DNA of 44,023 bases, taken from positions 1 through 44,023 of the IMG/VR virus record IMGVR_UViG_3300021477_000013. One strand, given 5' to 3'. Every line of letters starts with the position of its first letter. Position 1 is the stretch's first letter. Shown piece by piece: positions 9,709-44,023 of the stretch. The DNA comes from a virus. The notes under the pieces were generated by a model. That model had not been told where the DNA came from, searched no databases, and saw only the letters and a program-made list of their open reading frames with translations. The translations under genes and the position numbers were made by a program.

Positions 9709-9757
9709 GTGTTGCCAACGCATGGTCGATCTGCGCTCCACGCATGGCGCAAGCGGA

Positions 9758-9769
9758 ATGTTATAACAT
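9758..9769. repeat. 12-bp perfect palindrome in the divergent promoter region
   Basis: ATGTTATAACAT between the leftward and rightward promoters at 9680-9708 and 9918-9946. Possible repressor operator; a single copy was noticed. Confidence 0.4.
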
Positions 9770-9917
9770 CCACCAACAAGAAGAACCCCTGCAACTTGAA
9801 GTGGTATGAAGTTGTTTCAAAACCCCCCTCAATTCCGGGTTGTGGCGGTGAAAGGCGCGCGGGACCCGCCCCGTGCTCGGTGAATCTACGAACATACTGC
9901 TATATGTGAAACGTGGG

Positions 9918-9946
9918 TTGACAATAACCTGCGGGCGTGGTATAAT
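9918..9946 (+). promoter_or_regulatory. consensus sigma70 promoter placing the start at the HNH gene's ATG
   Basis: -35 TTGACA (9918-9923), 17-bp spacer ending TGG, -10 TATAAT (9941-9946). The ATG begins at 9952, only five bases after the -10, so the mRNA is predicted to be leaderless or nearly so. Confidence 0.85.
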
Positions 9947-9951
9947 TATCT

Positions 9952-10284
9952 ATGGCGCGCAGACATGACCCTGAATGGAAGCGAAAGTGGTGGAATGATC
10001 AGAGACACAATAATTCAAATTTTAGAAAGATGCAGTCCGTTCGTCAAATGACTAGAAGATGGATCAAGAAAGGATGGATCAAAGTCCCAGATTCATGTGA
10101 TAGATGCAATAATATAGGCCCTGTAGAGACTCATCATTTGTCGTACGATCAGCCTGATTCGAAAAGCGATGTGATGTTTTTGTGTCCTTCTTGTCACGAG
10201 TTAGAACACTACGGGCCTAAGAAACCTAGAATCCATAAGCATAGGTGGCCAAAATGGGTTCTCGGAACACCCACGGAGACTTGA
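9952..10284 (+). CDS. HNH endonuclease
   Basis: 110 residues with C49-x2-C52, H61-H62 and C78-x2-C81-H82, the zinc-bound HNH arrangement. The N-terminus is basic (RRHDPEWKRKWW). HNH proteins beside terminase genes often take part in genome packaging cleavage; other members are selfish homing nucleases. The gene is visibly more AT-rich than its neighbours, which suggests later acquisition. No ribosome site precedes the ATG and the promoter places +1 at about the ATG. The TGA stop lies in the -35 box of the next promoter (10281-10286). Confidence 0.82.
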   Translation: MARRHDPEWKRKWWNDQRHNNSNFRKMQSVRQMTRRWIKKGWIKVPDSCDRCNNIGPVETHHLSYDQPDSKSDVMFLCPSCHELEHYGPKKPRIHKHRWPKWVLGTPTET

Positions 10285-10309
10285 CACGCCCGCGCGGGCA
10301 TGCTAAAAT
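10281..10309 (+). promoter_or_regulatory. sigma70-type promoter for the packaging/head operon
   Basis: -35 TTGACA (10281-10286), 17-bp spacer ending TGC, -10 TAAAAT (10304-10309). The -35 includes the TGA of the HNH gene. Confidence 0.85.
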
Positions 10310-10338
10310 TAAGTACACTAACATTTAGGTGGCCCTTG

Positions 10339-10815
10339 GTGGAATTTCCCCAAGACCTGCAACCCATACCAACTCAGCCTTGGGATGAACGTCCAGATTC
10401 GCTCCCCCTTAATGTGGAAGAAGTGAGGACCGCCCTTTGGTTGGAGTCCGGTAGTATTCCAAAGGCCGCAATTCGGCTCAAGGTCTTGGCGTCCCGCCTC
10501 CGGCGTTTTATCAATTCGTCGCCGCGCCTGCTCGCCGAACAAAACGAAGCTCGGGAGCAATTGGCTGACAAAGCCGAGGAGAACGTCAAGGACGCGTTGT
10601 GGGATGACAAAGACGCCGCCCGTCGCGATAGCATGTCTAAATACGTGCTCTCCAGCTTGGGCAGGGGGCGCGGATACGGCCAAGGCCCCGGCAAGCAGAT
10701 AAATATTAACAGCGAGGGCGGGAACATATTGATCCAATGGGCAGATGGAACCGCCATTCAGACGCCCGAGAACGACGACGGGGTTATTATCGAGGGAGAG
10801 AAAAATGAAGCATGA
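10339..10815 (+). CDS. probable terminase small subunit
   Basis: About 158 residues. Start chosen at GTG 10339 (TTG 10336 is an alternative) after AGGTGG, because the promoter puts +1 near 10316 and an upstream ATG at 10300 would not be transcribed. An HTH-like segment (EVRTALWLESGSIPKAAIRL) is followed by a charged helical segment (LAEQNEAREQLADKAEENVK). This order is typical of small terminases that recognise the packaging site. Position directly before the large subunit supports the call. The C-terminal tail is acidic. Confidence 0.7.
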   Translation: MEFPQDLQPIPTQPWDERPDSLPLNVEEVRTALWLESGSIPKAAIRLKVLASRLRRFINSSPRLLAEQNEAREQLADKAEENVKDALWDDKDAARRDSMSKYVLSSLGRGRGYGQGPGKQININSEGGNILIQWADGTAIQTPENDDGVIIEGEKNEA

Positions 10816-11254
10816 CGCGGACGTTCTCAATTCGGCGCGGGAACTCGAAGAAGCAGACATAAAGATAGCGGATCTCACCCGCACCAATTCGCAGCTTGGA
10901 TTGGCGCTGGCGGAATCGACGCTGGAATGCGCGGCCTTGCGCGCGCAAGTGCAGGAACTGGTGGTTCAGAACGGGCGGCTGGAAACACTGCGCACACAAC
11001 ATTACAGCCAATTCGCTGCTGAGTCGCAAGCACAGGGGCTGTCCCAGCTGGGAGGGTATTACGACCACTCCCACCAATATCACCAACATGCGTTGGCTCA
11101 GCAGGCTCAAGCGCAGCAGTATCAGGCGCAAGCCCAGCAGTATTATAACCAGCTGCAACAGGGCATAATTGGGAGCCAGCTTGATTCGGGATTCGCAGGA
11201 TTGGCGCATTGCACCTGCGTCCCCGCGCGGCATGACGTATTGCGCGGCCGATAA
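10805..11254 (+). CDS. coiled-coil, Gln/Tyr/His-rich protein of unknown function
   Basis: 149 residues from ATG 10805 (GGGAGAG upstream), overlapping the preceding gene by 11 bases. Residues 5-65 form a likely coiled coil (LEEADIKIADLTRTNSQLGL and a following leucine-rich segment). Residues 70-125 are rich in Gln, Tyr, Ala and His. The TAA overlaps the terminase ATG (TAATGG). It is probably a packaging or head accessory protein, inferred from position only. Confidence 0.65.
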   Translation: MKHDADVLNSARELEEADIKIADLTRTNSQLGLALAESTLECAALRAQVQELVVQNGRLETLRTQHYSQFAAESQAQGLSQLGGYYDHSHQYHQHALAQQAQAQQYQAQAQQYYNQLQQGIIGSQLDSGFAGLAHCTCVPARHDVLRGR

Positions 11255-12591
11255 TGGACGGCGAACTACCGGATATACCTGATCCTATCGATCGTGCGGA
11301 ACCCCGTAGGGTAAATATTCCGTATGTCCCGCGAGTCCACTTTAGGCCCCTACACGCCTCCATTAAGAGGTTTCAATTCGTATGCGCCCACCGACGCGCT
11401 GGAAAAACTGTTGCAGAATATAACCACCTGTTACGGGCGAGCCTCAAGCTCAGACGAAAAGATCCGCCTCCGCGTTATGCTTATGTCGGCCCATCATTTG
11501 ATCAGACAAAGGATCTCGTCTGGGGGTATGCCAAGCATTACGCTGAACCCATCCCTAATGTCAGGTTCTATGAGGGGGACTTGATGACGGTGCTCCCGAA
11601 TGGGGCCTCAATTCGGTTATATGGCGGCTCGGCTGCTTATGAAAGGATGCGCGGCGTTTACTTCGACGGGATTGTACTCGATGAATACCCTCTGCTTAAT
11701 CCTGCTGTGTTTTCTAGCGTCGTGCGGCCATGTCTGGCTGATTATCGTGGATTCGGCATTATATCGGGGACGTCCAACGGGGACGATCACTTTCACGCAC
11801 TCCTCAAGAAAAACCAAGACAATCCAGATTGGGACATCCACATCATTCCGGTGACAAGCACCGATGCACTTTCCCCTTCTGAAGTGCAACAGATGCAGAT
11901 CGACATGTCTCCCGAGGAATACGCTCGCGAGATGCTTTGCAGCTTTGAGGCACCGATCGAAGGGTCTTATTATGCAGACACACTGAACTTGATGATGGCG
12001 GAGGGCCGAATTGATCGCGTTTCTTGGGACCTCAATGCGCCGGTGATTACTGCGTGGGACTTGGGCATTCACGACGCCATGTGCATCTGGTTTTACCAAA
12101 TTTGCGGGAGAGAAATCCACGTCATTGATTACTATCAGAGCTACGGGCAGCCTCTATCACATTACGCTGGAGTTATCAACTCTAAAAAAGTTGGCTCGTC
12201 GGGGTCGATTCGATTCCAATATAAGGCGCATTGTCTACCTCATGACGTTGAAGCGCGTGAGCTTGCAACGGGCCAATCAAGACGACAAGTTCTTAGTGAG
12301 CTTCTTGACGAGCCAGTTATTACAGCTCCGCTTGCATCTCCCGAGGACGGGATCGCTGCAGTTCGGGGAATTCTGGGAATGTCCTGGTTCAACAAGGACA
12401 CCACCGAGAAAGGAATGTCTGGCCTTCGTGCCTACAAGCGTAGCCGTCTCGGACGCCCCGTTCATGATTGGGCGTCTCATCCGGCTGACGCTTTTCGAAC
12501 GCTCGCCACCAGCTTCCACTTGGTTGCCGGATATGCCGGTTCCGCTAGACATCAAGGCCCTCTTAGGCGAAGGATAAGGGGAATAGTTTAA
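11254..12591 (+). CDS. terL: terminase large subunit
   Basis: 445 residues. The ATPase domain has Walker A HRRAGKT (46-52) and Walker B IVLDE (140-144). The RNase H-like nuclease domain begins around residue 264 with AWDLGIHDA (Asp268 a likely metal ligand) and ends with HDWASHPADAFR near residue 410. The protein pumps DNA into the prohead and cuts the concatemer. Length and motif order match phage large terminases. The start ATG overlaps the upstream stop codon. Packaging strategy (headful or cohesive) cannot be decided from sequence alone. Confidence 0.93.
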   Translation: MDGELPDIPDPIDRAEPRRVNIPYVPRVHFRPLHASIKRFQFVCAHRRAGKTVAEYNHLLRASLKLRRKDPPPRYAYVGPSFDQTKDLVWGYAKHYAEPIPNVRFYEGDLMTVLPNGASIRLYGGSAAYERMRGVYFDGIVLDEYPLLNPAVFSSVVRPCLADYRGFGIISGTSNGDDHFHALLKKNQDNPDWDIHIIPVTSTDALSPSEVQQMQIDMSPEEYAREMLCSFEAPIEGSYYADTLNLMMAEGRIDRVSWDLNAPVITAWDLGIHDAMCIWFYQICGREIHVIDYYQSYGQPLSHYAGVINSKKVGSSGSIRFQYKAHCLPHDVEARELATGQSRRQVLSELLDEPVITAPLASPEDGIAAVRGILGMSWFNKDTTEKGMSGLRAYKRSRLGRPVHDWASHPADAFRTLATSFHLVAGYAGSARHQGPLRRRIRGIV

Positions 12592-12603
12592 GGAGATCGC
12601 GCA

Positions 12604-12822
12604 ATGAGTTATGGGGAATCCGCAGTTGGCTTGTCGTTCAACCCGTCGGGCAGCGACGATGTTCACGACTGTAAGCGATTATTCGCCGAGATTATTGATG
12701 CTCTCAACGACGCCCGCTCCAGTACTTCGGACGGCGAACACAAGCGTCTTTATAGCGTCGCGATCACCGAGGCGCAGACTGCACAGATGTGGGCGGTGAA
12801 GGCTATAACCTGGAGAGGATAA
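12604..12822 (+). CDS. Acb2/Tad1-hairpin-like protein (predicted cyclic-nucleotide sponge)
   Basis: 72 residues beginning MSYGESAVGLSFNPSG, with two helices (VHDCKRLFAEIIDALNDAR; AITEAQTAQMWAVKAITW). The FNPSG start, the helical hairpin and the AQMWAVKA(I/L)TW end are those I know from small phage proteins assigned to the Acb2/Tad1 hairpin family. Acb2 proteins form compact oligomers that sequester cyclic di- and trinucleotides made by bacterial CBASS defence. ATG 12604 follows AGGAGATCGC. The stop overlaps the next start (TAATG). Assignment rests on remembered family pattern; ligand specificity cannot be read from sequence. Confidence 0.72.
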   Translation: MSYGESAVGLSFNPSGSDDVHDCKRLFAEIIDALNDARSSTSDGEHKRLYSVAITEAQTAQMWAVKAITWRG

Positions 12823-13538
12823 TGGCTACCTCGCAGAAGAACCCCGCTTGGCTCGACGCGCTGTTGGCGCAGACTTACCCCGGCAATGCCACCGATATGT
12901 CTGCTTTTCCCAACGTAATGCAGGCGCACGCGGGCGGGACGCCAACTGGACCGATTATTCCAAGATCTGGTGGTTACGCTCCGCCTGGAGGAGACCCCCG
13001 CGCAGCTGATTCGGCGATGAACATGAACACCGGAATGGCTCCAGGGTCATTGGGGAATATCCCCATTCCGGTCGGTGGGGTTCGCCATCCATATGCTCCG
13101 CCTGTTCCCAACCCTTCCAATGTTGGCGGGGCACCCTCTCCGGGTATTCCCGCCCCACAGGGCGCGAACCGCACCGCGAATAACCCGCCGATGAACCCCA
13201 ACTTCGGCACCGTCCAATATCAAACCCCTAATTCGGTGGGCGGTCGCGCTCCCATTTACACAGCTGCCAACCTCGGCAGCATGTTCGGAGGCAGTCCGCA
13301 ACAAACCCCGACGGGGCATCCGTCCGCAACGCCGCCCGCAGGCGCTCTCTCGGGTGGATTCGACGTGGGCAAAATGTTCCAGAACCTCCCCAACAATACC
13401 TTCGATGGTTCCACGGATACTTCCGGGGTCGCCCCGTGGAACATGGGGCTGTATCAGCAGAAGGTGATGGGGAGCGGCCAGCAGACGGGTCCCAATAGAC
13501 CGAGCAGCGGCGTTGATCCTTCGTTATGGGGTTACTAA
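12822..13538 (+). CDS. Pro/Gly/Asn-rich disordered protein before the portal
   Basis: 238 residues starting MATSQKNPAWLDALL at ATG 12822 (TGGAGAGG upstream, overlapping the Acb2-like stop). After a short amphipathic N-terminus the rest is low-complexity Pro, Gly, Asn and Thr, with no hydrophobic core, so it is probably disordered. The position between terminase and portal suggests a head-associated or assembly role. No recognised family. Confidence 0.65.
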   Translation: MATSQKNPAWLDALLAQTYPGNATDMSAFPNVMQAHAGGTPTGPIIPRSGGYAPPGGDPRAADSAMNMNTGMAPGSLGNIPIPVGGVRHPYAPPVPNPSNVGGAPSPGIPAPQGANRTANNPPMNPNFGTVQYQTPNSVGGRAPIYTAANLGSMFGGSPQQTPTGHPSATPPAGALSGGFDVGKMFQNLPNNTFDGSTDTSGVAPWNMGLYQQKVMGSGQQTGPNRPSSGVDPSLWGY

Positions 13539-15737
13539 ATGTCTTACACGCAGCAAGCTGGCGGGGGCATGGAGCGCCTCTTCTATTCTTTTAAGGACTC
13601 CGGAACCGCCACACAATATGATCCCGCTGATCCGGAGTCGTATGCGCAATTCATCGATTCCCTCATCAACGATTGCAGGGATTACGAGAACTCTGTGCTC
13701 GCCAAATATCGCGACGAGGCGCAGAAGTTTTATTACGGAATGCTTCCGAGCATGGGGGGGCAGCCTCCTGAGGAGACTTCCAGCGTCCTTACGGACCCCA
13801 GCCTTACATTCGGCGATATTCTTGGCGGCGAATATGACACAAAGTCGCTGAACAAATCGACTTTTGTGTCCACCGATGTTCGCGACGCCGTTCTCCAGAT
13901 GCTGCCCTCTCTTGTTCGCATATTCGCTGCGTCGGAGAATGTTATAACGATTGTTCCGAGAACGCAGCAGGAGATTGCGACCGCCGAACAGGCGACAAAC
14001 TACGTAAATTATACGTTCTGGCAGGATAATCCAGGCTTTCTTATTCTATACGGTGCCTTCAAAGACGCGATGACGGTTAAGACAGGCTTCGTGAAATGGT
14101 GGACCGACGACAATGTTCAGACAGCTTATAAGACATTCGTCAACTGCAACCAAATGCAGATCCAACTTCTCCTGCAAGAGTCGCAAGGGTCGAGGGTGGT
14201 TCAAGCAGCCCCGGTGGATCAGCAGACTGGTCTCTTTCCTGAAGTGGTTATCGAGTATCAGATCAGCAAACCGGTAATTAAGGTCGCCGGGGTTCCTCCA
14301 GAGGAGATGCGCCTTGATCGATACGCGCGAAGTTTCTCTCGTTCCCGCATTATCGGGCACGAGCGTATTGTCTACATCGACGAATTGGTGTCAATGGGTT
14401 ATGACCGCGACTTATGCGCCAATTATATTCAAACGCAAGATATTCATAATTTTACAATGGAGGCCCAACTCCGCAATGAGGGTCGTGGAATGTCGACTCG
14501 TATTGGCGATGGAGTGATGTATGGAGAATGGTACATCTGGGTGGATAAGGATGGAACTGGGTCAACTCAGCTCCGATATATTTGCACGATGGGAGAGGAT
14601 CACGCAATCGTCAACGATGAGACAGCGAATCGAGCTAAGTTCGCCTGTTTTTCTGTTGATCCCATTTCTCACACTATTGTTGGCGATTCTATCGCCGATC
14701 TCACCCTCGATATCCAGCGCATCAAGACCAATATGTTCCGGGGTGTTCTTGATTCGCTAGCGGAATCGATTAACCCGAAGACCGTAGTCAACGAATTGAT
14801 GACGAATCTCGACGACGCGATGAACGATGATCTTGGGGCCATCATTCGCACGCGAGGCGATCCGAACACCGCCGTAGCCTATTCCCGTACTCCATTCGTT
14901 GGTCAGGACGCCCTTCCGGTGATCCAGATGCTCAACGAAGTGTTGCAGCGGCGGACAGGACTATCCGATGCGGCGAAGGGCCTTGATCCTAAAGCATTGC
15001 AATCGTCGACTATGATTGGCGTTGATGCAATCATTTCCGGAGCCCAAGAGCGTATCGAGTTGGTGGCGAGGGTTCTCGCGGAAACCGGCTTTAAGGATCT
15101 CTTCCAGGGTCTTTATAACGAGATATGTGAGAACCCGAACCCGCCGCGTATTCTTCGGGTCAACGGAACTTTTCAGCAATTCGATCCGAGCACCTTCGAC
15201 GCTACGATGGGCGTGGAGGTAAATCCGACCCTCGGCAAGGGCACCGACGTTACGCGGATGATGGCCCTTACACAGATTAAACAAGATCAGCAAACTCTCG
15301 TTAGTCAGATGGGCCTCAATAATCCTATCTGTGGTATTCCGGAAATGCTGAACACCGTTACTGATATGTTGGAGATGCTTAACATTAAAAATGTCAACAG
15401 GTATTTCAAGATGCCCGACCCGCAGACGCTGCAAGCGATGCAGTCTGCGCCGAAGGAACCCGATCCGATGACGGTCGCGTCCAAGGCTCAGTACGAGAAG
15501 GTTAAAGCCGACGCCGCCGCGAAGATTGGTCAGCAAGGCCTTGAAGCGCAGAAGAATAAGGCTACCGCCGAAATTCAGCAGGAGCAGCTGCTTCAGAAGA
15601 GCGGGTACGACAATAAGCGCATCGAGCTTGAGCGCCAGAAGATGGAACTCCAGAACCAGCAGGAATTGGAGAAGATGCAGATCGAGCGAGAGCGCATCGC
15701 GATGGAAGCTGCTAAGCCCCAAGGTGGGGGTAAATAA
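13539..15737 (+). CDS. portal protein (P22-size class)
   Basis: 732 residues, the size of P22-type portals. The first gene after the terminase block and before the scaffold-like gene, which is the usual portal position. Features include the early helical region with many acidic residues, a central core (PPEEMRLDRYARSFSRSRII near 250-270; DSIADLTLDIQRIKTNMFRG near 385-405) and a long charged coiled-coil C-terminus (from about residue 650). Portals form the dodecameric channel at the capsid vertex through which DNA is packaged and ejected. ATG 13539 follows the stop of the previous gene directly; the TAA overlaps the next ATG. Confidence 0.85.
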   Translation: MSYTQQAGGGMERLFYSFKDSGTATQYDPADPESYAQFIDSLINDCRDYENSVLAKYRDEAQKFYYGMLPSMGGQPPEETSSVLTDPSLTFGDILGGEYDTKSLNKSTFVSTDVRDAVLQMLPSLVRIFAASENVITIVPRTQQEIATAEQATNYVNYTFWQDNPGFLILYGAFKDAMTVKTGFVKWWTDDNVQTAYKTFVNCNQMQIQLLLQESQGSRVVQAAPVDQQTGLFPEVVIEYQISKPVIKVAGVPPEEMRLDRYARSFSRSRIIGHERIVYIDELVSMGYDRDLCANYIQTQDIHNFTMEAQLRNEGRGMSTRIGDGVMYGEWYIWVDKDGTGSTQLRYICTMGEDHAIVNDETANRAKFACFSVDPISHTIVGDSIADLTLDIQRIKTNMFRGVLDSLAESINPKTVVNELMTNLDDAMNDDLGAIIRTRGDPNTAVAYSRTPFVGQDALPVIQMLNEVLQRRTGLSDAAKGLDPKALQSSTMIGVDAIISGAQERIELVARVLAETGFKDLFQGLYNEICENPNPPRILRVNGTFQQFDPSTFDATMGVEVNPTLGKGTDVTRMMALTQIKQDQQTLVSQMGLNNPICGIPEMLNTVTDMLEMLNIKNVNRYFKMPDPQTLQAMQSAPKEPDPMTVASKAQYEKVKADAAAKIGQQGLEAQKNKATAEIQQEQLLQKSGYDNKRIELERQKMELQNQQELEKMQIERERIAMEAAKPQGGGK

Positions 15738-15994
15738 TGGATCGCAGTTCTGATTCGGAGGACATAAAGGAGCGCGCTCGCATATCCAAGGAATTGCTTG
15801 AGAACAAAGCATTCCAGTATGCTTTGATGAAACTACGTAAGCAGTGGTTCCAGGAACTCATGGACAACGGGGCGGGGGACTTGACAGGTGCCCGCCTGTG
15901 TGCTAGGATAAACGCGCTGGAAGCCCTTGCTACTGAACTTGCTGTTCAGATAAATGACTACAAAATGATGGCAAGAAATGCCCGAGGGAATTGA
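15737..15994 (+). CDS. small helical protein between portal and scaffold
   Basis: 85 residues, highly helical and charged (ERARISKELLENKAFQYALM, then ARINALEALATELAVQINDY). Starts TAATGG with the portal stop and overlaps the scaffold start by 17 bases. It contains a promoter within its reading frame (15881-15909). Probably a head assembly accessory; function unknown. Confidence 0.65.
   Translation: MDRSSDSEDIKERARISKELLENKAFQYALMKLRKQWFQELMDNGAGDLTGARLCARINALEALATELAVQINDYKMMARNARGN
15881..15909 (+). promoter_or_regulatory. internal sigma70-type promoter ahead of the scaffold/capsid genes
   Basis: -35 TTGACA (15881-15886), 17-bp spacer ending TGC, -10 TAGGAT (15904-15909), inside the coding sequence of the preceding small gene. 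It would boost scaffold and capsid mRNA. Confidence 0.8.
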
Positions 15995-17234
15995 TCAAGC
16001 TGCCAATGCTTTCCGTGACGCGGTAGGAGGCCCCGAACGGGTTCCTGCGCGGGATACGTCTGGTCGATTCCGCGAGAATACGCCTCGTCCTGAGTCTTTA
16101 TTTGCTGAGCGCCAAACTGAAGGCGACGCGTTTGGCGATACCCGCGATGGCGGGGAGGACGTAAGGCGGCGTCGCCAGGAAGCGAGAGCAAATGGTGACC
16201 CGTTCGAAGATGGAGCCCCTGCCACACGATCCCGCAAAACGACCTCCCAAGCTGAAAGGCAGGGTCGCCAACGTAATGAATCCGACGGCGAGGGACGCGT
16301 CAATGCCCCCGCCGACGAAAGACACGAAACCTTCGGGGATGAGCGGCGGGAAGAACAAGGTGACGACGAGTCCGAGTCACAAGATCAAGGGGCTCTATCA
16401 GACGACGACGAGCAGACCGACGACGAGCGGGAGTTGCCCGACGGGGACGCCGGCGAAGACGCCGAAGGCGAAGGCGGGGAGGGGTCTGACCAGAGGTATG
16501 AGGTAACTGTTGACGGGAAACCGATGGAGGTTACCCTAAAGCAGGCGCTCGAAGGTTACATCCGCACAGAAACTTTCCACCAGCGGATGAATAAAGTAAA
16601 CGAAGCTTCTCAAACAGTCATGGCCGAGGCACAGCGTGTTGCGCAGGTCCGTGACCACTACATCAATCAGAACGCAGCGCTGGAGCAGGAGATCATGACG
16701 CTCCTTCCGCAGCAACCTGATTGGGAAGCGGAGTTCCAGAGAGATCCGAAATCCGCCTATTCGTTGAGGAAACAATACGAGGCGGTGGACCAGAAGCTGC
16801 AAGCACTCCGACAGGCAAGAGGCGCGGCGATGCAAGAGAGGGCCGCAGAACAGGCCCGATCTACGGAAACCTACGCGAAGGATCAATTCGCTAGGTTCGT
16901 CATGGACAATAAGATCCCTGACGAAGGTGCTCTCCGAAAAGAACTCAACTCAATGCGGCGAACCGCAATGACGGCGGGTTTCTCGGAACAAGAGGTCGCG
17001 ACCGTTTACGATGCGCGGATGCTCAGTGTTTTGAGGAAGGCGAGCAAATATGACCGGTTGATGGCGGCAAAACCCAGAGCGGTCGTCCCCGGTAAAGGCA
17101 GAGCGTTGACACCCGGTTCCGCACCCCGAATAGGGAACGCGGGACGTCGGAATATCGACGAAGCCCAGAGCCGATTGGCTAAATCAGGTCGCATTGATGA
17201 CGCGGCCTCGGTCTTCGAGAAGATAATCCGATGA
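15978..17234 (+). CDS. scaffold-like head assembly protein
   Basis: 418 residues directly before the capsid gene. The first about 170 are strongly charged, Glu/Asp/Arg-rich and probably disordered. A short folded motif (YEVTVDGKPMEVTLKQALEG, about 174-193) follows, then a long helical region (about 200-340) and a basic C-terminus. This acidic-then-helical build and the position fit phage scaffolding proteins, which direct capsid assembly and then leave or are degraded. No protease gene is seen nearby. Start ATG 15978 is in the end of the preceding gene. Confidence 0.75.
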   Translation: MPEGIDQAANAFRDAVGGPERVPARDTSGRFRENTPRPESLFAERQTEGDAFGDTRDGGEDVRRRRQEARANGDPFEDGAPATRSRKTTSQAERQGRQRNESDGEGRVNAPADERHETFGDERREEQGDDESESQDQGALSDDDEQTDDERELPDGDAGEDAEGEGGEGSDQRYEVTVDGKPMEVTLKQALEGYIRTETFHQRMNKVNEASQTVMAEAQRVAQVRDHYINQNAALEQEIMTLLPQQPDWEAEFQRDPKSAYSLRKQYEAVDQKLQALRQARGAAMQERAAEQARSTETYAKDQFARFVMDNKIPDEGALRKELNSMRRTAMTAGFSEQEVATVYDARMLSVLRKASKYDRLMAAKPRAVVPGKGRALTPGSAPRIGNAGRRNIDEAQSRLAKSGRIDDAASVFEKIIR

Positions 17235-32643: not shown

Positions 32644-32827
32644 GGTTCATCTCTACACATTTTTTACAGTAGGATTCCCAGTTAACTTTGCTTACATTGA
32701 GAAGGCTGAATTCCAAATTCGGCCAGTGGCCTCGCCATAACCCGATTATGTCGCCACAAATCCACTCAATGGCCCACGCGCTTCCGCCTGCCGTGAGCCA
32801 AATATGATCGTCATGTTGCTCCGTCAC
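32579..32827 (-). CDS. small hypothetical protein with CxxC
   Basis: 82 residues from GTG 32827-32825, overlapping the helicase stop (GTGA). Trp-rich N-terminal half (HIWLTAGGSAWAIEWICGDI) and a YCKKCVEMN segment. Its last 20 residues overlap the next gene in another frame. Unrecognised. Confidence 0.5.
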   Translation of the reverse strand: MTEQHDDHIWLTAGGSAWAIEWICGDIIGLWRGHWPNLEFSLLNVSKVNWESYCKKCVEMNHAGYGLGNQGREENTGAPNGT

Positions 32828-34227
32828 GCTGGGACCGCCTTCCTTATGTGGGCGAAGATCGCTTTGAAAATAGATTCTTTACGCTGAAGCGCTCGAATGA
32901 CATTTCGATCCATGCTAGTCCCGCAAAGATCGATATAGTTGACCGAATTAGCATCCTGTCCGCGACGATGATTCCGGTCTTCAACTTGCGAGCGATCGTC
33001 GAGAGAATAGCTATTCTCAAAGAAGATGGTGGTGGAACATCGATTTCCAGGACCCGGACTACCCAAAAGTGTGTGGCCGTACTTTCCGGCTCGCTCTTGT
33101 ACCAGAATGATACGACAGGATGGGTTCTCGTTGAATTTTCGCTTTTGTTCATCGACTTCATCGGGTTTCATGCCCCCTGTGATTCGGGCGGGGTTAAACT
33201 CCTTTAACGCTTCACTCAAGATTTCGAACGTATATCGGTGAATATAGACGACGATAGCCTTGCCGGGAACCTCGTCGCGCAGAATGTCCAGCAACGTCAG
33301 GACGCGGGGATTCTTGTGCGGTTCACAGATAACTGTCACCTTCGATTCGTTGTCGGTATCGATGATGAACCCGCACTGAATTTGGGCCAGCTTTCCATAT
33401 TTCGTGATCGCCGCGTCCACCGTGACGAATTCGTCGTCGTTCATCCAGAGAACGAAGTCCTTTTCCATGCTCCGATATTGGGCGCGCTGTTCTTTCGTCA
33501 TCTCGTATTCGCGGGTCGTGTACACCTTGGGGATACTGAACAGCCAATCCTCTTTGGTAGCCCGGAATACATGTGGTTCGATAAGCTTCGCGAGGATGTC
33601 CTCATTCTGGGAGCCTATGACTTGCTTATTTTTGAACCCGCCCATCCGACAAAACATACCACGGAACGCGTAAAAATTGCGTCCATCCAGTTGGCCGATA
33701 GCTCGCATTTGAGCCCATAAGTCATGAGGCCCCTGAGCCGTCGGCTTTCCGGTGAGGATACGTCTGACAACTGCCTGCCGCGATAAGGATATAGCCGCCT
33801 TACTCTGTATCGCGTCATGAGTCTTAATCTGGATGCTTTCGTCAAGTGCGATGTAGGTGGGCTTCCGAGCCATCCAATCAAGAAGCTTAGTATGAATGGC
33901 TGGACTACGGATTGCTTCGTAGTTGATAATAAGTAAAGGCGGACGCTCATAACGTCGTCCAATAAAACGGTCGCTGTCAAACGTACCGCTCTGGAAGATG
34001 TGAGTTTCAAAGTCAAAGCCGTGCTTTTCGACTTCTTCGGCCCATCCGCCTTTGAAGGTATTGGGACATACCGCGACCATTCTAGTAGTGCCATCTGCAA
34101 TCCCCCTTTGGAACTCAGTTAACGCTGTTAACGTCTTCCCTAAGCCCATCTCCATGAAGAATCCGAATCCATGCCTACCCTTCGAGGCTTCGAGCGCGGC
34201 GATCTGGACTGGATCAAGAGTGCTCAT
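32824..34227 (-). CDS. SNF2/SF2-type DNA-dependent ATPase (helicase)
   Basis: 467 residues. Walker A MGLGKT (27-32); a DEAH-like box ALDES (127-131) followed by IQIKTHDA, as in SNF2 proteins; motif VI DRSQVEDRNHRRGQ near residue 415. It is a superfamily 2 ATPase that translocates on or remodels DNA; in phages such proteins assist replication or recombination. It overlaps the upstream small gene by 14 bases and is followed by a GTGA-coupled gene. Confidence 0.88.
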   Translation of the reverse strand: MSTLDPVQIAALEASKGRHGFGFFMEMGLGKTLTALTEFQRGIADGTTRMVAVCPNTFKGGWAEEVEKHGFDFETHIFQSGTFDSDRFIGRRYERPPLLIINYEAIRSPAIHTKLLDWMARKPTYIALDESIQIKTHDAIQSKAAISLSRQAVVRRILTGKPTAQGPHDLWAQMRAIGQLDGRNFYAFRGMFCRMGGFKNKQVIGSQNEDILAKLIEPHVFRATKEDWLFSIPKVYTTREYEMTKEQRAQYRSMEKDFVLWMNDDEFVTVDAAITKYGKLAQIQCGFIIDTDNESKVTVICEPHKNPRVLTLLDILRDEVPGKAIVVYIHRYTFEILSEALKEFNPARITGGMKPDEVDEQKRKFNENPSCRIILVQERAGKYGHTLLGSPGPGNRCSTTIFFENSYSLDDRSQVEDRNHRRGQDANSVNYIDLCGTSMDRNVIRALQRKESIFKAIFAHIRKAVPA

Positions 34228-34432
34228 TGTTCGCCAGATAAGTAGTCGCAGCTATGCGAGGAATCGACTCATCGATTATTTTAGAAGTGGTTAAGGCTAT
34301 CCCTAAAGCTATCGTAAGCGCTATGTTGCGCGTCTCATCATCAACATCGCCGATAGTTTGAACCGCCGCTCTTATCATCAATTTAGCTGCCTCCACACCA
34401 AGATCTATTGTTTCTTGCTCGTATTTATTCAT
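34214..34432 (-). CDS. small helical hypothetical protein
   Basis: 72 residues from ATG 34432, acidic and largely alpha-helical with a hydrophobic middle (RNIALTIALGIALTTSKIID), perhaps a buried or membrane-contacting helix. Overlaps the zinc-ribbon gene upstream and the helicase downstream. Unrecognised. Confidence 0.6.
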   Translation of the reverse strand: MNKYEQETIDLGVEAAKLMIRAAVQTIGDVDDETRNIALTIALGIALTTSKIIDESIPRIAATTYLANNEHS

Positions 34433-34595
34433 CTTCTGCCCCGGTTCTCCTCAGCCAATCCCGTAGCTCCTCTTTATCATTCGGATCGTCTTGGTCTGCG
34501 ATCCATTGGCAGGTTAGGCATCTCTTGCGAACGATGCCGAGAGCGTCGTAAACCTCGGAGCTACAATCTGTACAGATATAGGTCGGTTCATCCAT
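34425..34595 (-). CDS. small zinc-ribbon protein, 56 residues
   Basis: Starts at ATG 34595-34593 after GGGAGGG, overlapping the MazZ stop (TAATG). CTDC at 8-11 and CLTC at 26-29 are likely zinc ligands; the rest is acidic (DQDDPNDKEELRDWLR). Located immediately downstream of mazZ in the same operon. Function unknown. Confidence 0.65.
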   Translation of the reverse strand: MDEPTYICTDCSSEVYDALGIVRKRCLTCQWIADQDDPNDKEELRDWLRRTGAEDE

Positions 34596-34927
34596 TAGTC
34601 CCTCCCGTCGATCGCCATTGCGCACAAAATGAGAGCCATATTCGCCACGTCGGCAGCTTCGAGAACTATCTCTACGGTGTTCTTTCCCTCCTCAATGGCG
34701 CTGGCTAGTTCTGTGACTTCTTCCCGAAGGTGGTTCATGTATTCGACGACCCGCCCGTGTTCCCACTTTCCCTTGTGGGAATTCTTGCGCAGCTTGTAGA
34801 TCATCGCATCGAACATGCGCCTCATATCATGTTCATACGCTCGAAGCTCCGGCGGAATCTTGATCGTCAACTTGCTCCACTCTAGGCCCATGCCCGAAGA
34901 TAAATTTGTAATTCGCTCCGAGGACAT
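34595..34927 (-). CDS. mazZ: MazZ-like nucleotide pyrophosphohydrolase (MazG/DUF550 fold)
   Basis: 110 residues by the longest frame; the domain resembles DUF550/MazG proteins. The Mg-binding acids are in EEVTE (69-73) and EAADVAN (90-96, Glu90 and Asp93), with NSHKGKW (49-55) before them. In Z-genome phages this class converts dGTP to dGMP, supplying the substrate of PurZ. It overlaps the end of purZ by 95 bases if started at ATG 34927 (AGGA upstream). Later ATGs (34891, 34825) would shorten the overlap, so the true start is uncertain. No long linker or second domain is present. Confidence 0.85.
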   Translation of the reverse strand: MSSERITNLSSGMGLEWSKLTIKIPPELRAYEHDMRRMFDAMIYKLRKNSHKGKWEHGRVVEYMNHLREEVTELASAIEEGKNTVEIVLEAADVANMALILCAMAIDGRD

Positions 34928-35888
34928 CTCTAGTATTCCTGTGCTTTTTGTAAAAGTCCAGTTGCTCTAGGGTATTCAGATAGTTCATGAAGTTTAAGAA
35001 TACATGCGTCGGGTCGTTCGCTGTCACCGAATCCTTGAACTGGTTCCAGCTGAACGTAGCGACGCGGCGCACCCGCTTGGTTACGGTTGTATATTCGGTG
35101 GGAACGCCTACCGTATCCCAGTCGGTTTCATATTGATCAGTGTACCAATCCCCACTGCTGAACCCATCGGCATTTCCTACCCGGATGGGGTAGGTCCGGA
35201 AACACAGATAGCCCCTTTTGTAGTATGTCGGCGGGAGACGGGCGTCAGCCATTCCCTGCATGAACGTACATTCGCGGCTGGTTACGTGTGGATAAAATTT
35301 GGCCTCGTTTAATCCCAACGAGAACCCTTGAGAAATCTCCATAAAATACGGGTGATATTCCAGGTCGACAATATTCTCATAGTAAGGAAATAACCGATGG
35401 GAGTGATTGTAATAAATGGCAGAAGGATCACGGCGAACCTTTCTAGAAATTGCCGCGCCGGTTCCTGAACGTGTTCCAGCAACAGCGAATATACTGCCAG
35501 AGGTATCATTCTCTGTCACCCTATCCTTTTCGAGGATTACCGTCGCGCAGGGATGAATGAATATAGGGATGTCCGGAAATTCTAAGTGTTCCTTGATCAG
35601 CAATTCGGCGTCGATAGTTGCCCCTGCCGAAAAGTATACCGGAATGGTATGGCCTCGCAGATGCATGTGAACCGCGAAGGTGGGCAGTTGTTTTAGAACG
35701 ATCTTAGTTTCCCTGAAATAACTGGTGTGTCCGCTATTCGGCCCCGCGCTTGTGATGCAGCCGTTGAATGGGATTACTTCTATAATAGCGCGCTTGGCGA
35801 GCCAAGAAGCGATCAGCCCCTTCCCCTCTGAACCATATTGGCCTCCGGCGAGGATATGGAGGCCAGTGTCAGTGAATAGAGTGCTCAC
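34833..35888 (-). CDS. purZ: PurZ, 2-amino-deoxyadenylosuccinate synthetase
   Basis: 351 residues, homologous to adenylosuccinate synthetases. The P-loop-like start GGQYGSEGKG (15-24) has Ser20 where host PurA has the catalytic Asp (GDEGKGK); this replacement marks PurZ. GPNSGHT (49-55) and the GTRSGTGAA segment (138-146) are further family motifs, with RTYPIRVGN and ETDWDTVGVPTEYTTVTKR later in the sequence. PurZ joins dGMP and aspartate (ATP-driven) to give 2-amino-deoxyadenylosuccinate; host enzymes finish dZTP. ATG 35888 overlaps the preceding stop. Confidence 0.93.
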   Translation of the reverse strand: MSTLFTDTGLHILAGGQYGSEGKGLIASWLAKRAIIEVIPFNGCITSAGPNSGHTSYFRETKIVLKQLPTFAVHMHLRGHTIPVYFSAGATIDAELLIKEHLEFPDIPIFIHPCATVILEKDRVTENDTSGSIFAVAGTRSGTGAAISRKVRRDPSAIYYNHSHRLFPYYENIVDLEYHPYFMEISQGFSLGLNEAKFYPHVTSRECTFMQGMADARLPPTYYKRGYLCFRTYPIRVGNADGFSSGDWYTDQYETDWDTVGVPTEYTTVTKRVRRVATFSWNQFKDSVTANDPTHVFLNFMNYLNTLEQLDFYKKHRNTRDVLGANYKFIFGHGPRVEQVDDQDSAGASSV

Positions 35889-36097
35889 TTCATCATTTCC
35901 TTGAGCTTGTTGATGGCTGCTTGCCTCTCATCCAAGGGTTGGGGCGGCGGTGCAACTGGCACCGCCGCTTTGATTATAAATCGGTTGGCAGACCCACATT
36001 GTTGAGGCCAGGGGTATTTCCACGTGTGGAATCGATGACATGCCTCTGCCGGGGTGGTTATCAGCGTTATTAAGGCCAATCCGGCTAGTCTTTTCAT
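35885..36097 (-). CDS. small exported protein with signal peptide
   Basis: 70 residues. MKRLAGLALITLITTPAEA is a typical signal peptide; cleavage is likely after AEA. The mature part has CHRFHTWKYPWPQQCG, with two Cys that may form a disulfide, then a Pro-rich helix. It would act in the periplasm. Encoded between PurZ and the DUF6378 gene with four-base overlaps. Role unknown. Confidence 0.7.
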   Translation of the reverse strand: MKRLAGLALITLITTPAEACHRFHTWKYPWPQQCGSANRFIIKAAVPVAPPPQPLDERQAAINKLKEMMK

Positions 36098-36474
36098 TCG
36101 GCGGCCTTTCGCGATCGGATTTCGTCGAATAAGCCGCCGCCGGTTGGCTTCATTATTTCTTGCTTAGGCGCGGCTACCATTCCTGCGAGCGCAGTGTAAC
36201 CCGCGTCGTCTGCGAAATTGTCGCGATTGACATCGATTGCGTAGACAAACCGAGCCTTCTTAAGCAGGGACATCATTTCCAACACGTCAACTGCATCGAT
36301 TTGCAGCAGAATCGAGGGGTTCTTGTGCCTCGAATAGTTCGCGTGGCGGAGGTAAACCTCCCACATCTGCGCCACCATCGAATACGAGTTGTCTACGTCG
36401 CCGTGAATGTCTCGGCCTCCACCGACCGCCTGACTTGCGTCTTCCAGGATATCAACTGCTGTTGTGTTTCCCAC
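36094..36474 (-). CDS. DUF6378-like phage protein
   Basis: 126 residues. The pattern ILEDASQAVGGGRDIHGDVD, SYSMVAQMWEVYLRHAN, DVLEMMSLLKKARFVYAIDV and DNFADDAGYTALAG matches small phage proteins grouped as DUF6378. Function unknown. In the same operon as the exported protein and purZ, with overlapping codons. Confidence 0.75.
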   Translation of the reverse strand: MGNTTAVDILEDASQAVGGGRDIHGDVDNSYSMVAQMWEVYLRHANYSRHKNPSILLQIDAVDVLEMMSLLKKARFVYAIDVNRDNFADDAGYTALAGMVAAPKQEIMKPTGGGLFDEIRSRKAAE

Positions 36475-36838
36475 GTAACCACTCCTCTATTGTTCCGGCG
36501 TAATTCGCACCACTTGGCTGCTTAAACGCCTTGGTGATGAATGCCTCTCTGCCCCAATCCGCGATGTACATTACTTGGCTGCGCCATCCTATCAACACCG
36601 GGAACGCTATACCTTTTGCCTCGATGACTCGGATGCCTTCCACGTATTGTCTCTCGGACGGGGCGAATTTGAGACCATCCGTCACTTTGCCCTCGACAAA
36701 TAGGGTGGGATAACCAGTCGGCACGATGGTGATATCCAGAATGCCTACGCCGTATCCGTCTTCTATTCGCCGAGCATACCAACCCCTTGCCTTACATTGT
36801 TTCACAAGCTCGGTCTTGAGGATGGATTCTTCGCTCAA
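36452..36838 (-). CDS. VRR-NUC-like PD-(D/E)XK nuclease
   Basis: About 128 residues from TTG 36838-36836, which overlaps the upstream TGA (TTGA) with AAAGGA upstream; no in-frame ATG is well placed. Likely active-site residues: Asp35 (GVGILDITIV), Glu49 and Lys51 (FVEGKVTD), with a Gln64-containing helix (SERQYVEG) after. These fit the VRR-NUC branch, which cuts branched or flapped DNA. A replication or recombination role is likely. It overlaps the DUF6378 gene by 23 bases. Confidence 0.78.
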   Translation of the reverse strand: MSEESILKTELVKQCKARGWYARRIEDGYGVGILDITIVPTGYPTLFVEGKVTDGLKFAPSERQYVEGIRVIEAKGIAFPVLIGWRSQVMYIADWGREAFITKAFKQPSGANYAGTIEEWLRGKHNSS

Positions 36839-37053
36839 TGGATTGGCATGTCCTTTGCTGGTTCGCCGTCGATCGTCTCCAACATGTGCAACAACATGTC
36901 GCGACCTATTACACATTTCGCCCATGTGTTATCGTTTCCATCGAGAAGCATCACGTGCAAGTGATCGCATCCCCCGCACTTGTAGTAGCTCGTTGCGATG
37001 GCTGTTGGCGCGTCGTTTGGGTCTTCGAATGGTGCCCCGTCTTCATGTTCCAT
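36835..37053 (-). CDS. small acidic protein with CxxC
   Basis: 72 residues from ATG 37053-37051, overlapping the upstream stop (TGATG). Acidic N-terminus (MEHEDGAPFEDPNDAPT), then YYKCGGCDHLHVMLLDGN. One CxxC and a His could form half a zinc site. Unrecognised. Confidence 0.6.
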   Translation of the reverse strand: MEHEDGAPFEDPNDAPTAIATSYYKCGGCDHLHVMLLDGNDNTWAKCVIGRDMLLHMLETIDGEPAKDMPIH

Positions 37054-37301: not shown

Positions 37302-37570
37302 CTATCTTTTGCGCCTCGTACCAACCCAATCATATTTATAGCATGAACTACGTCGATGTCGCCTGCGATGTCTTCCATCTCTTTATCGCTAGGATTACGC
37401 AATTTATCGCCATCATATATTGCGACATGTGAACAATAGAAGCATATTGCCACATCCCCATCCTCCGGAGGGCGGCTCTTTGCGTTGGTTACGTCCATCG
37501 CCGCACTCATGGATTTATTGCAATTAGGGCAGAAACACTCAGGTCTTCTGAACGCTTCGATTCTAGCCAT
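37298..37570 (-). CDS. small zinc-ribbon protein downstream of the polymerase
   Basis: 90 residues from ATG 37570-37568 (GGAGGC upstream). CPNC near residue 14 and CFYC near 43 give a zinc ribbon; the C-terminal segment is helical (DIDVVHAINMIGLVRGAKD). It overlaps the polymerase stop by eight bases, and its TGA lies in the next promoter's -35. Unknown function. Confidence 0.65.
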   Translation of the reverse strand: MARIEAFRRPECFCPNCNKSMSAAMDVTNAKSRPPEDGDVAICFYCSHVAIYDGDKLRNPSDKEMEDIAGDIDVVHAINMIGLVRGAKDS

Positions 37571-39335
37571 AGGAAGCCTCCGCCCAATTAGTTCCAGTTC
37601 CGACCTCATAAGGAATAGGTAGACCGAGTTTAAATTCATCCGGGACCGCCTCGCAGACTTTTATCAATTCGGTGGTGTCGAATCCGATCTCGCGCTGCCA
37701 AATCAACGAATCGTGGATGGTCATTAGTAACTGTACCTGCGGATGAGCTTCCTCGTATTCGGAGGCGCGCAGGAGAGTTGTCTTCATCAAGTCGCCGCCG
37801 GAATTCTGTATGATTCGGCTCACCGCTCGATAAGCGTATGCTTTATCCTCTAGACGAGCCTTGCGGCCAGTGATCGACCTGACGTAGCCGCTCGATAAGA
37901 ATATGCCCTTCGCTTCTTTTTGGAACTTGAGAATGGCGGGGAATTGACCTTTCAGCCACGCCTGATGATAGTTCAACGCTCGATTGTAGTCCCAACCCAT
38001 ATGACCTGCCAACGCTTTAGCTGACATGCCTGTTAGGATTCCCATGGCCATTCGTTTAGCGATATCTCGGTGCAATCCCAGACCAGCGGAAGTGATGTCG
38101 TGGATGTCCATAGTTCCGGAGCGGTATCCCTGAAGTAATCGCTCATCTTCTGAGAAATATGCAAACAATCTAGGCTCTTGCTGTTTGGCGTCGCCTTCCT
38201 GAATCTCGAAACCGTCATCAGCAATGATGAGTCTTCTGACGGTTTTCCCGACTTCTTTATTTCGTTTTGGGAACGCTTGAAGATTCGGCTCAGAACAGCT
38301 AAATCGCGCTCCGATTGCACCGTAGTCGTCAGATTTAGATTGATTGAGTACAGGATGAACTCGTCCCTTAACATTATGCGTCTCCACAAGCGGCGTGACG
38401 AACGAATCCCGAGCTTTTTTCATCTGCCTTATGCCGATAATTCTTTCGCCAATTTCGTTATTTTTCAGCCATCCTTCGGTGAAGGATACGGCCCCATTCT
38501 GGGTGCGTGCGAAGTCATCGTCCCCGAACCCCTCACGACGATAAAGACTCTCAACGTCTTTCGGTGAGTTGGTATTGAAACCATATGGAAACGTCGATTG
38601 GATCGCGGCAATTTTGGTCTCGATGATTCCGTTCGGTCCTCTGAGTTGTTGACCATATTCGCCATCCACTTTCATCCCGCGTCGATGGAGACGCGCCACT
38701 CGATGAATTAGCTGACATTCCAGCTTCCAAGGAGTCCTCAATTCGTGTTCGTCTAGCAGCTTCTGCTGCGCCTCCCACAGCTCTAAAGTGGATATCCCGT
38801 CACCCGTAGCGTAATCCACAACGTCAGGATGATCGCCAGCCATCTTGTAAAAGTTAGCCATTGTCTTGCGGTTTGGCATACCGCCAAATTTCGCCGCGAT
38901 TGCCCGATAAAGAGCATCGCCAAGCTTAGCAGTAACACCATGGCGTTGGCTACAATCATCGAGTCCATACCCAGAAGTGACATCGCTGATAAGCCCCTCA
39001 TTTATCATGGTATCTTCCAAGGGGTACTCCGGAAATACGCCGTGTTTTCCCGCCATGCGCAGGTCGAAACCCAGAGCGTGACCGACCGTAAGGAAGCCGC
39101 GCCGAGCGCGAGTCTTGAATGCGAGACCCAAAACTCTCTCGAACTCCCCTGAATGAAGTATGTTTCCTCCACCAACATGGCCGGTGGGAACGTAGACGCT
39201 CGCATAGCGGTCTGTAAACACCCAACCCACAACAGTATCATGAATTGTCAATCCCGTTGTTTCTGTATCGAACGCCATCACAGAAGAGTGTTGCACCATA
39301 TCGATGGCGCGTTGCGGATCAATTCCCTGATACAT
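37563..39335 (-). CDS. family A DNA polymerase with 3'-5' exonuclease (DpoZ candidate)
   Basis: 590 residues from ATG 39335-39333 (GGAGACTAAA). Exonuclease motifs: FDTET (22-26), GHALGFD (85-91) and YATGD (175-179). Polymerase motifs: A with Asp382 (EGDAKQQEPR), B from Arg423 and Lys427, C with His541-Asp542. Unusual residues: relative to E. coli Pol I, the O-helix Phe762 is Met431 and Tyr766 is Thr435, and the Glu after the motif C Asp is Ser543. In Z-genome phages a proofreading family A polymerase (DpoZ) favours Z over A. Co-occurrence with purZ and mazZ supports that, but the substrate preference is inferred. Confidence 0.85.
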   Translation of the reverse strand: MYQGIDPQRAIDMVQHSSVMAFDTETTGLTIHDTVVGWVFTDRYASVYVPTGHVGGGNILHSGEFERVLGLAFKTRARRGFLTVGHALGFDLRMAGKHGVFPEYPLEDTMINEGLISDVTSGYGLDDCSQRHGVTAKLGDALYRAIAAKFGGMPNRKTMANFYKMAGDHPDVVDYATGDGISTLELWEAQQKLLDEHELRTPWKLECQLIHRVARLHRRGMKVDGEYGQQLRGPNGIIETKIAAIQSTFPYGFNTNSPKDVESLYRREGFGDDDFARTQNGAVSFTEGWLKNNEIGERIIGIRQMKKARDSFVTPLVETHNVKGRVHPVLNQSKSDDYGAIGARFSCSEPNLQAFPKRNKEVGKTVRRLIIADDGFEIQEGDAKQQEPRLFAYFSEDERLLQGYRSGTMDIHDITSAGLGLHRDIAKRMAMGILTGMSAKALAGHMGWDYNRALNYHQAWLKGQFPAILKFQKEAKGIFLSSGYVRSITGRKARLEDKAYAYRAVSRIIQNSGGDLMKTTLLRASEYEEAHPQVQLLMTIHDSLIWQREIGFDTTELIKVCEAVPDEFKLGLPIPYEVGTGTNWAEASYG

Positions 39336-39422: not shown

Positions 39423-40259
39423 CTAGAACTTTGTATTCGCGTCTCGGTGCACCGGTTGCGCCCTCCCATTCGTTGAGGGCGGGTCGTCTCCTGTCCGCTC
39501 GTCGTTGGCGCGGAATGCCACGTCTTTGTACTGCTCGAACATCGATCGGGCGACTTCGCCGTCGCTCTCGTCTGCGTATCCCAGACTCTTGTAGTTAAAG
39601 TTGAAGTACGAGTTATTCTCGGGACCCTTGTCGGTGACCACCCCTATCGAATACAGTTGGAAGAAATGGTCCACAGGCTTAGCGTCGATCAGCGACAAGA
39701 GCCGCTGGCACTGCTTCACCGACCCCCGCGAATTGAGGATAATGGAGGGGCCGAGGTCCATTCTCTCTGGGAATAGCCAGAGAATTTCGTATGTGAGCGC
39801 GGCGGCAGGAGGCGAATTGGGGTCGTCATCCCTCTGCGTGCCGAACTGGTCGAGTTTTGATTCGGCGACAGTCGGGGCAAGCCTCCAGGTATAGGTTCGC
39901 GGATTCTTGGAGAACTTCACCTGGAATTCGCCCTCGGGCGGGTCCCACTTGATGCCGTCGCGCGACCGCGCCAGAATGCCGCGCTCGTCTCCTCTTGGTG
40001 CCCACAATACGTAGGTCTTGCGGAGGACCAGAGGAATTCCGATGAGTTCCTTACCCATCGATTCGTTGAGGATTGTGTGCCAGAACTCCCCTGCTTTGGC
40101 ATTCTCGTTTTCCTCAACTTCCGGGGAGACGGAAGCGAGGAGTTTGATGCGCGGAATTACCAGATCGGAGCGGTCGAAATTACCGAATCGCTCGGTCTTA
40201 ACTTTACCCACCAGATATTCAGGTAGGGCGTTGCTTCGGAATGGGATTACGTCGGCCAT
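39423..40259 (-). CDS. replication-region protein of unknown function (possibly ssDNA-associated)
   Basis: 278 residues. Pattern LVIPRIKLLASVSPEVEENE, AGEFWHTIL, LVLRKTYVLWAPRGDERGIL is known to me from phage proteins placed next to polymerase and recombination genes, sometimes annotated as ssDNA-binding-like. Beta-rich core, acidic or polar C-terminus (DDPPSTNGRAQPVHRDANT), as in ssDNA-binding proteins. Starts at ATG 40259; the next gene ends three bases before. Function remains unproven. Confidence 0.6.
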   Translation of the reverse strand: MADVIPFRSNALPEYLVGKVKTERFGNFDRSDLVIPRIKLLASVSPEVEENENAKAGEFWHTILNESMGKELIGIPLVLRKTYVLWAPRGDERGILARSRDGIKWDPPEGEFQVKFSKNPRTYTWRLAPTVAESKLDQFGTQRDDDPNSPPAAALTYEILWLFPERMDLGPSIILNSRGSVKQCQRLLSLIDAKPVDHFFQLYSIGVVTDKGPENNSYFNFNYKSLGYADESDGEVARSMFEQYKDVAFRANDERTGDDPPSTNGRAQPVHRDANTKF

Positions 40260-40261
40260 GA

Positions 40262-40759
40262 CTACACCTTTGTGATTGACGTGTATGGACGCAGAGTAGT
40301 AGTGAACAAGTCAGTCGGCAGTTCGCGTGCGTGCGTTTCGACCTCGCTCTTAGCGAATGAGGCCAGGGTTTGTGCGTTGATCGTTTCGATGATGATGCCA
40401 CCGTTTCCGGTGTCTCGGAGCCATTCGAAACTCTCCGGCTTCTTGCCGTCGACTATCGAGCAGCCCCATTTATACGCAACATTGACACGCCCGACACCAT
40501 CCACGGTTACTGTCTTGATGCCGGAGCGCTTGAACGCATCGGGTACATCCTCGTGGGACAAATGATCTTCTAGGTCGTCCAGTGCCTTACGCGCTTTCTT
40601 GATGTTTTCGGTGACCCCACGAAGTTCTGCGTAGTGCTTGATCAGAGGGATCAAATCACCCGCGCCGACGAATTGTTGGGTGTCGGCGATTACGCGCCTC
40701 GTCGCCTCTTCCAAGGAGAGGACTACTTGGCTAAGTACTAATTGTGTCATTGCTTGCAT
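40262..40759 (-). CDS. conserved replication-region protein of unknown function
   Basis: 165 residues. A helical N-terminal half (residues 15-70) is followed by a compact beta domain: VTVDGVGRVNVAYKWGCSIV, FEWLRDTGNGGIIIETINAQ, and a LRPYTSITK end. This arrangement recurs next to phage recombination/SSB-type genes. ATG 40759 (GAGGTG upstream) is the first gene of the polymerase operon. Function unknown. Confidence 0.65.
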   Translation of the reverse strand: MQAMTQLVLSQVVLSLEEATRRVIADTQQFVGAGDLIPLIKHYAELRGVTENIKKARKALDDLEDHLSHEDVPDAFKRSGIKTVTVDGVGRVNVAYKWGCSIVDGKKPESFEWLRDTGNGGIIIETINAQTLASFAKSEVETHARELPTDLFTTTLRPYTSITKV

Positions 40760-43767: not shown

Positions 43768-44023
43768 TTAGAACTTTCTCTCCGCCGTCGGCTCGTTCGC
43801 AGCCTCCTGCTTAGCCTTGGCGCTAGCTGCAGCACCGGCCAGAACGGTCTTCGGCAGTTCGATTTCAACGTCATCGCCTTCGAGGTCCCGCAAGACGCCG
43901 TTCTTGCGAACCAGCGTTGCGAGCATATTGCGGAGGGTCATCCGCGCCCGCCCCTGAGAACCCAGGCGCTTGGATTCGACCTGGCCTTCATACATCGCCA
44001 CTTTCTCCTCGGGGAGGCCGTTT
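43768..44023 (-). CDS. C-terminal part of the junction-spanning gene (QGR-family paralog 1)
   Basis: Continues the frame begun at 223-1. The encoded end carries SQGRARMTLRNMLATLVRKN and an acidic-then-Ala-rich tail (AGAAASAKAKQEAANEPTAE). The in-frame GTG at 44001 is internal to the gene, not a true start, because the frame is open to 44023 and matches bases 5-32. The shared QGR domain places it with the paralogs at 5296-6084 and 9073-9621. A one-base difference at the junction changes residue 74 between Leu and Met. Confidence 0.85.
   Translation of the reverse strand, partial: NGLPEEKVAMYEGQVESKRLGSQGRARMTLRNMLATLVRKNGVLRDLEGDDVEIELPKTVLAGAAASAKAKQEAANEPTAERKF
43992..44023. repeat. terminal overlap with bases 1-32
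   Basis: Bases 43996-44023 are identical to 5-32, and 43992-44023 matches 1-32 with one mismatch (T at 43995, G at 4). This shows a circular or circularly permuted genome, probably an assembly overlap rather than a true terminal repeat. Confidence 0.85.

Follow-up and report, generated by a model that had tools for sequence, protein, structure and literature searches.

The purZ gene of a podovirus-like soil phage related to Ochrobactrum phage OH sits in a new variant of the 2-aminoadenine (Z) cassette, one that lacks datZ and has a third type of polymerase. The window analyzed is the whole 44,023-nt sequence of the phage (IMG/VR record IMGVR_UViG_3300021477_000013). Judged by sequence and modeled fold, the predicted enzyme is a true PurZ, and so adds a member to that known family. 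It is probable that this is a real PurZ in a working Z-DNA cassette, with A excluded by the polymerase and by PurZ's use of dATP, or otherwise with Z and A mixed.

In the pathway proposed, MazZ would convert dGTP to dGMP, which PurZ would combine with aspartate, using ATP or dATP, to give dSMP; both activities are predicted from sequence. Host enzymes would carry dSMP onward to dZTP, and the phage PolA would place Z opposite T. With no recognizable dATPase encoded, either the polymerase and PurZ must exclude A or the genome must be mixed: A would be kept out by a polymerase preference for Z, helped by PurZ's consumption of dATP, and failing this the two bases would occur together. S-2L PurZ is able to use dATP (PMC8342488), and the preference of phiVC8 DpoZ for Z amounts to one to two orders of magnitude, with trace A still admitted (PMC8599892). 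Z is likely present in the DNA of this phage, a Z-containing genome being the best reading of a PurZ encoded together with a MazZ-2 and with a PolA whose clade is associated with PurZ.

The purZ gene and its product

The purZ gene (2-amino-deoxyadenylosuccinate synthetase) occupies 34833-35888 on the minus strand and encodes 351 aa from a GTG start at 35888. A preliminary description had placed the gene at these same coordinates, which hold, but the strand has been corrected to minus, since the plus-strand translation of the interval contains many stops. Its account of an adenylosuccinate-synthetase-like protein with Ser20 in GGQYGSEGKG (codon 35829-35831) and GPNSGHT farther on (AGPNSGHT in full) is borne out by translation of the minus-strand ORF. 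The match to PurZ families is far beyond chance: the NCBIfam PurZ model NF038379 scored highest of all models (196.6 bits, 5e-58, compared with 75.6 for purA), with further matches to PHROG 1211 (167 bits) and Pfam PF00709 (70 bits). The NF038379 score lies below the curated cut-off of 300 bits, a value set from known members and not a biological feature. Among relatives, dN/dS is 0.10-0.16, indicating purifying selection.

In alignment, Ser20 takes the position of the catalytic Asp13 of PurA, giving a P-loop of GSEGKG where PurA has GDEGKG and the alternative form is GSTGKG. Ser alone is not diagnostic of the PurZ subgroup, being also found in PurZ0 and some archaeal homologs (PMC12884076). 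The solved structures nearest by sequence are phiVC8 PurZ and S-2L PurZ. A 103-row tree places the protein inside PurZ, where phage OH and metagenome viral contigs share its clade; a 28-row tree places it in a PurZ group split from PurZ0 and PurA with support of 99/99, the branches to PurA and PurZ0 being long, which calls for caution. The AlphaFold model (pLDDT 88, pTM 0.90) gives TM scores of 0.84 to phiVC8 DgsS/PurZ with dGMP and 0.82 to S-2L PurZ, and lower ones to Pyrococcus PurA (0.79), PurZ0 (0.77), and E. coli PurA (~0.72). The dGMP-pocket residues of S-2L PurZ, as defined in PMC8342488 (S23, N49, T132, R146, Q190, T205, R240, V241, R280), are all identical here, the pocket positions in this protein being G19, S20, N51, T139, R153, Q187, T203, R236, V237, and R274. 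The peripheral S-2L residues A50, G130, S131, Y203, and C204 differ, mostly as they do in OH or other PurZ. Both trees and the structure matches rule out a PurA or PurZ0 identity. The earlier identification as PurZ is thereby upheld, in a phylogenetic position within PurZ rather than PurA or PurZ0, in the fold and pocket residues, and in the gene neighborhood described below.

Compared with locus L006, PurZ is only 87% identical (84% in DNA) and the flanking genes 97-100%, which suggests a recent exchange of purZ alleles among close relatives. Bacillus phage vB_BpsS-140 (L027, 5935-7056) encodes a PurZ-like protein with GSEGKG that does not belong to the main PurZ clade and has neither MazZ nor DatZ in its vicinity.

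The cassette and the absence of datZ

The minus-strand order is gp33/Gam-like, gp34-like, PolA, a small ORF, a nuclease, DUF6378, a 70-aa ORF, PurZ, MazZ, two small ORFs, and an SNF2 helicase. The gp33/Gam-like (40262-40759) and Pam3 gp34-like (39423-40259) genes, together spanning 39423-40759, belong to the same replication module as PolA. The putative nuclease (36452-36925) is a homolog of OH gp30, and the 70-aa ORF (35885-36097), found in close relatives only, lies between DUF6378 and purZ. Directly after purZ, and overlapping it, is mazZ (34595-34927), encoding a predicted dGTP diphosphohydrolase of the MazZ-2 type. Its product is 43% identical to OH MazZ, which is classed as MazZ-2 (PMC8342488), keeps all of the acidic residues E70/E73/E90/D93, and has weak Pfam MazG/PRA-PH scores. 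Homology to OH MazZ begins near residue 20, so the true mazZ start may lie within the purZ overlap. The SNF2-type helicase (32824-34227) bounds the cassette downstream. A primase/helicase (321-2819), also on the minus strand, is 45% identical to the OH DNA primase-polymerase. The right end repeat (43992-44023) equals bases 1-32 with one mismatch, a 32-bp overlap, and a homolog of OH gp23 spans the two ends of the 44,023-nt sequence, so the genome is circularly closed.

No DatZ was found in the whole closed genome by tblastn with OH DatZ, by Pfam YfbR-like and HD searches, or with a 15-sequence DatZ profile that was positive in 9/9 full or near-full DatZ-plus genomes; nor was any found in 11 other near-full-length relatives by the same DatZ/YfbR-like/HD searches. 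The position of datZ is taken up by two minus-strand ORFs, one of 66 aa (34425-34625), Cys-rich, zinc-ribbon-like, and conserved in L006-L009, the other of 72 aa (34214-34432) and without DatZ homology. A relocated or diverged datZ is ruled out by the whole-contig tblastn, YfbR-like, HD, and profile searches, and a contig broken at datZ by the intact MazZ-helicase junction and the overlapping ends.

Some 44 related loci are DatZ-minus, including eight other closed genomes (exact end overlaps of 69-127 bp). In DatZ-minus loci the helicase comes straight after MazZ, where OH has datZ; the gap between these two genes is mostly <400 bp in the 44 loci of this kind, whereas 40 DatZ-plus loci have gaps of at least 474 bp. 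The 11-row subclade around this PurZ (support 98) has no DatZ-plus members. On the PurZ tree the DatZ pattern amounts to eight changes, at least seven of them on well-supported branches, a count that cannot by itself separate loss from gain; the outer PurZ lineages are all DatZ-plus, and datZ is kept in 12/12 reference PurZ phages sampled. In the L048 and L057 records (G016, G022), one TAG lies within the match range of the DatZ frame.

In published schemes purZ-mazZ-datZ forms a single unit, with DatZ for total exclusion of A. The datZ dATPase is invoked for this in phiVC8 and S-2L (PMC8599892, PMC8065100), mazZ is said to be always between datZ and purZ (PMC8342488), and PurZ phages are said mostly to encode DatZ (PMC12884076). 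A DatZ-less group with PurZ and MazZ is not described in the available parts of PMC8342488 or PMC12884076. Closed genomes that keep PurZ and MazZ without DatZ, with sisters that keep DatZ, are a natural experiment on the need for dATP removal. The preliminary description had gone on from PurZ to propose that Z replaces A throughout the genome, and to predict that such DNA would resist many restriction enzymes and Cas nucleases; complete replacement is weakened, datZ being missing and the polymerase lacking most hallmarks of phiVC8-type DpoZ.

The helix-O gate and the make-up of the DNA

The PolA-family DNA polymerase, with 3'-5' exonuclease, is encoded at 37563-39335 on the minus strand (590 aa from ATG, in an ORF that opens at 39401 with TTG). 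It has in common with phiVC8 DpoZ the exonuclease residues, the R/M in helix E2, and motif C (HDS), but not insertions 2 and 3, L455, F459, or G548, and has Met431, Thr435, and Ser506. It does not reach the NCBIfam DpoZ cut-off and, on these sequence features, is not a phiVC8-type DpoZ. In the polymerase tree it is in a clade of its own (support 100), adjacent to the phiVC8-like DpoZ clade (91 SH-aLRT).

Thr435 (codon 38031-38033) is at the position of phiVC8 DpoZ F459 and Klenow Y766, the helix-O gate, where OH has Ser and ordinary PolA has Tyr. The only mutation that the two DpoZ classes have in common is F459, which stands where a Tyr is otherwise strictly conserved (PMC8599892). Among the dereplicated PurZ-positive loci of the survey, 64 have Thr at the gate, 15 have Phe, two have Ser, and five have Tyr; of the five with Tyr, four have retained DatZ and the other is a PurZ0-like MAG contig. 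A separate polymerase scan found Tyr in 72/73 PurZ-negative loci and Asn in one, several of these loci being short enough to miss a distant purZ, and Thr or Asn in six PurZ-positive loci. Gate Thr or Ser was seen in PurZ carriers only, among the loci surveyed. The tree suggests that the gate Tyr has been replaced at least three times, twice by Phe and once by Thr. L152, L155, L156, and L158 are PurZ-plus, DatZ-plus phages whose PolA has the ordinary Tyr, and are a negative comparison for the gate idea.

Klenow carrying Y766S has an opened active site and reduced fidelity (PMC3121766). On this analogy the change to Thr plausibly alters base-pair sensing here, and we infer that it may be linked to the choice of Z; its meaning may also lie elsewhere than in Z selection. 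The gate residue (Tyr to Phe twice, Thr/Ser in PurZ phages) is a candidate part of Z selection, the basis of which is the question left by the phiVC8 DpoZ structure. This point and the natural experiment on dATP removal are both relevant to building ZTGC-DNA cells or tools. The chances are about even that, in a large group of uncultured soil phages, a Z-selecting PolA of a third type (Thr/Ser), with an origin of its own, keeps A out so well that DatZ became dispensable and was lost often, or else that these genomes are mixed Z and A.

Partial replacement, in which a moderately selective polymerase working without DatZ would give a mixture of Z and A sufficient to blunt restriction, deserves serious if somewhat doubtful consideration. 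Wild-type phiVC8 DpoZ admits A at physiological dATP (PMC8599892), parts of the S-2L cluster in E. coli gave lower Z, with the absence of datZ and mazZ acting together (PMC8342488), and the repeated DatZ changes on the tree suggest that full exclusion of A is not essential in this clade; the purifying selection on PurZ and the strong tracking of PurZ by the polymerase gate change argue the other way.

It is unlikely, although conceivable, that Z is made and A is removed by an unrecognized phage dATPase, for example DUF6378 or a small ORF, so that the three-function scheme would hold. The DUF6378 protein (36094-36474, minus strand) is encoded immediately upstream of purZ in almost every relative and has invariant H24, G25, K72, R75, D89, and G92. 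Such proteins, often annotated as phosphofructokinase, are also encoded close to the Z clusters in phiVC8, ZP6, K300, BUCT555, and Bm1. PurZ0 phages, with DutZ/DUF5664 in place of DatZ (PMC12884076), are a precedent, and the phage has many unknown ORFs among which such an enzyme could be encoded. Against this, a sensitive search found DUF6378 in DatZ-plus and DatZ-minus genomes alike, it is present in L235, a contig with this replication module but no PurZ/MazZ, and it occurs beside NrdH-like genes in many ordinary phages. Its AlphaFold model (pLDDT 89, all-helical) has no PDB match, and gene-content comparison gave no clear DatZ-minus-specific substitute. DUF6378 was rejected as a DatZ replacement because its seeming DatZ-minus enrichment was gone in the sensitive search, and because of its presence in PurZ-less L235. 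It is older than the Z cassette, so that it may contribute to Z metabolism without being specific to it. A dUTPase was found in 0/21 genomes searched, DatZ-plus and DatZ-minus, which rules out a substitute of that type; no other HD protein was found as a substitute in the genomes searched, and DUF5664 gave no match in a search that had no positive control. L235 (IMGVR 3300026121_000018, 9743-16024) has short unknown ORFs between DUF6378 and the SNF2 helicase, Asn as its polymerase gate residue, and an MT-A70-type methylase farther along.

It is very improbable that the protein is PurA- or PurZ0-like and serves some other purpose (purine salvage or ordinary dAMP supply) in a phage with normal DNA: the P-loop resembles that of PurA more than GSTGKG and the NCBIfam PurZ cut-off is not reached, but Ser replaces the catalytic Asp, the protein falls inside PurZ on the tree, its structure and pocket agree with dGMP-bound PurZ, MazZ is adjacent, and the same cassette is found in DatZ-plus sisters.

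Comparison with known Z systems

OH (Ochrobactrum phage vB_OspP_OH, Wolominvirus, NC_070933) has gene order, polymerase, nuclease, DUF6378, and SNF2 helicase in common with this phage, and its PurZ and MazZ-2 are 49% and 43% identical to those here. The OH paper describes these genes as nucleotide salvage only (PMC7139368). OH differs in having datZ (gp35), preceded by gp34, between MazZ and the helicase, and in its gate residue, Ser instead of Thr.

The purZ-mazZ-datZ clusters of phiVC8, S-2L, and SH-Ab 15497 share the PurZ and MazZ families and the PurZ pocket residues with this phage, but have datZ. Insertions 2 and 3 and Phe459 of the phiVC8-type PolA are missing here, and S-2L uses PrimPol. 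Relative to the canonical Z cluster (PMC8342488), purZ and mazZ are adjacent here but mazZ has no datZ beside it. PurZ0 phages (Wayne and Ghobes; here DrRobert and FireCastle) likewise have no DatZ, Ser for Asp, and a non-Tyr PolA gate; they are a separate clade, however, and carry DutZ and often DmtZ (PMC12884076), where no dUTPase was found here. The phiVC8-like DpoZ, in the adjacent clade, resembles the polymerase of this group in its intact exonuclease, helix E2 R/M, and HDS motif C, and differs in that Thr/Ser here replaces the gate Phe, Met replaces Leu455, and Ser replaces Gly548.
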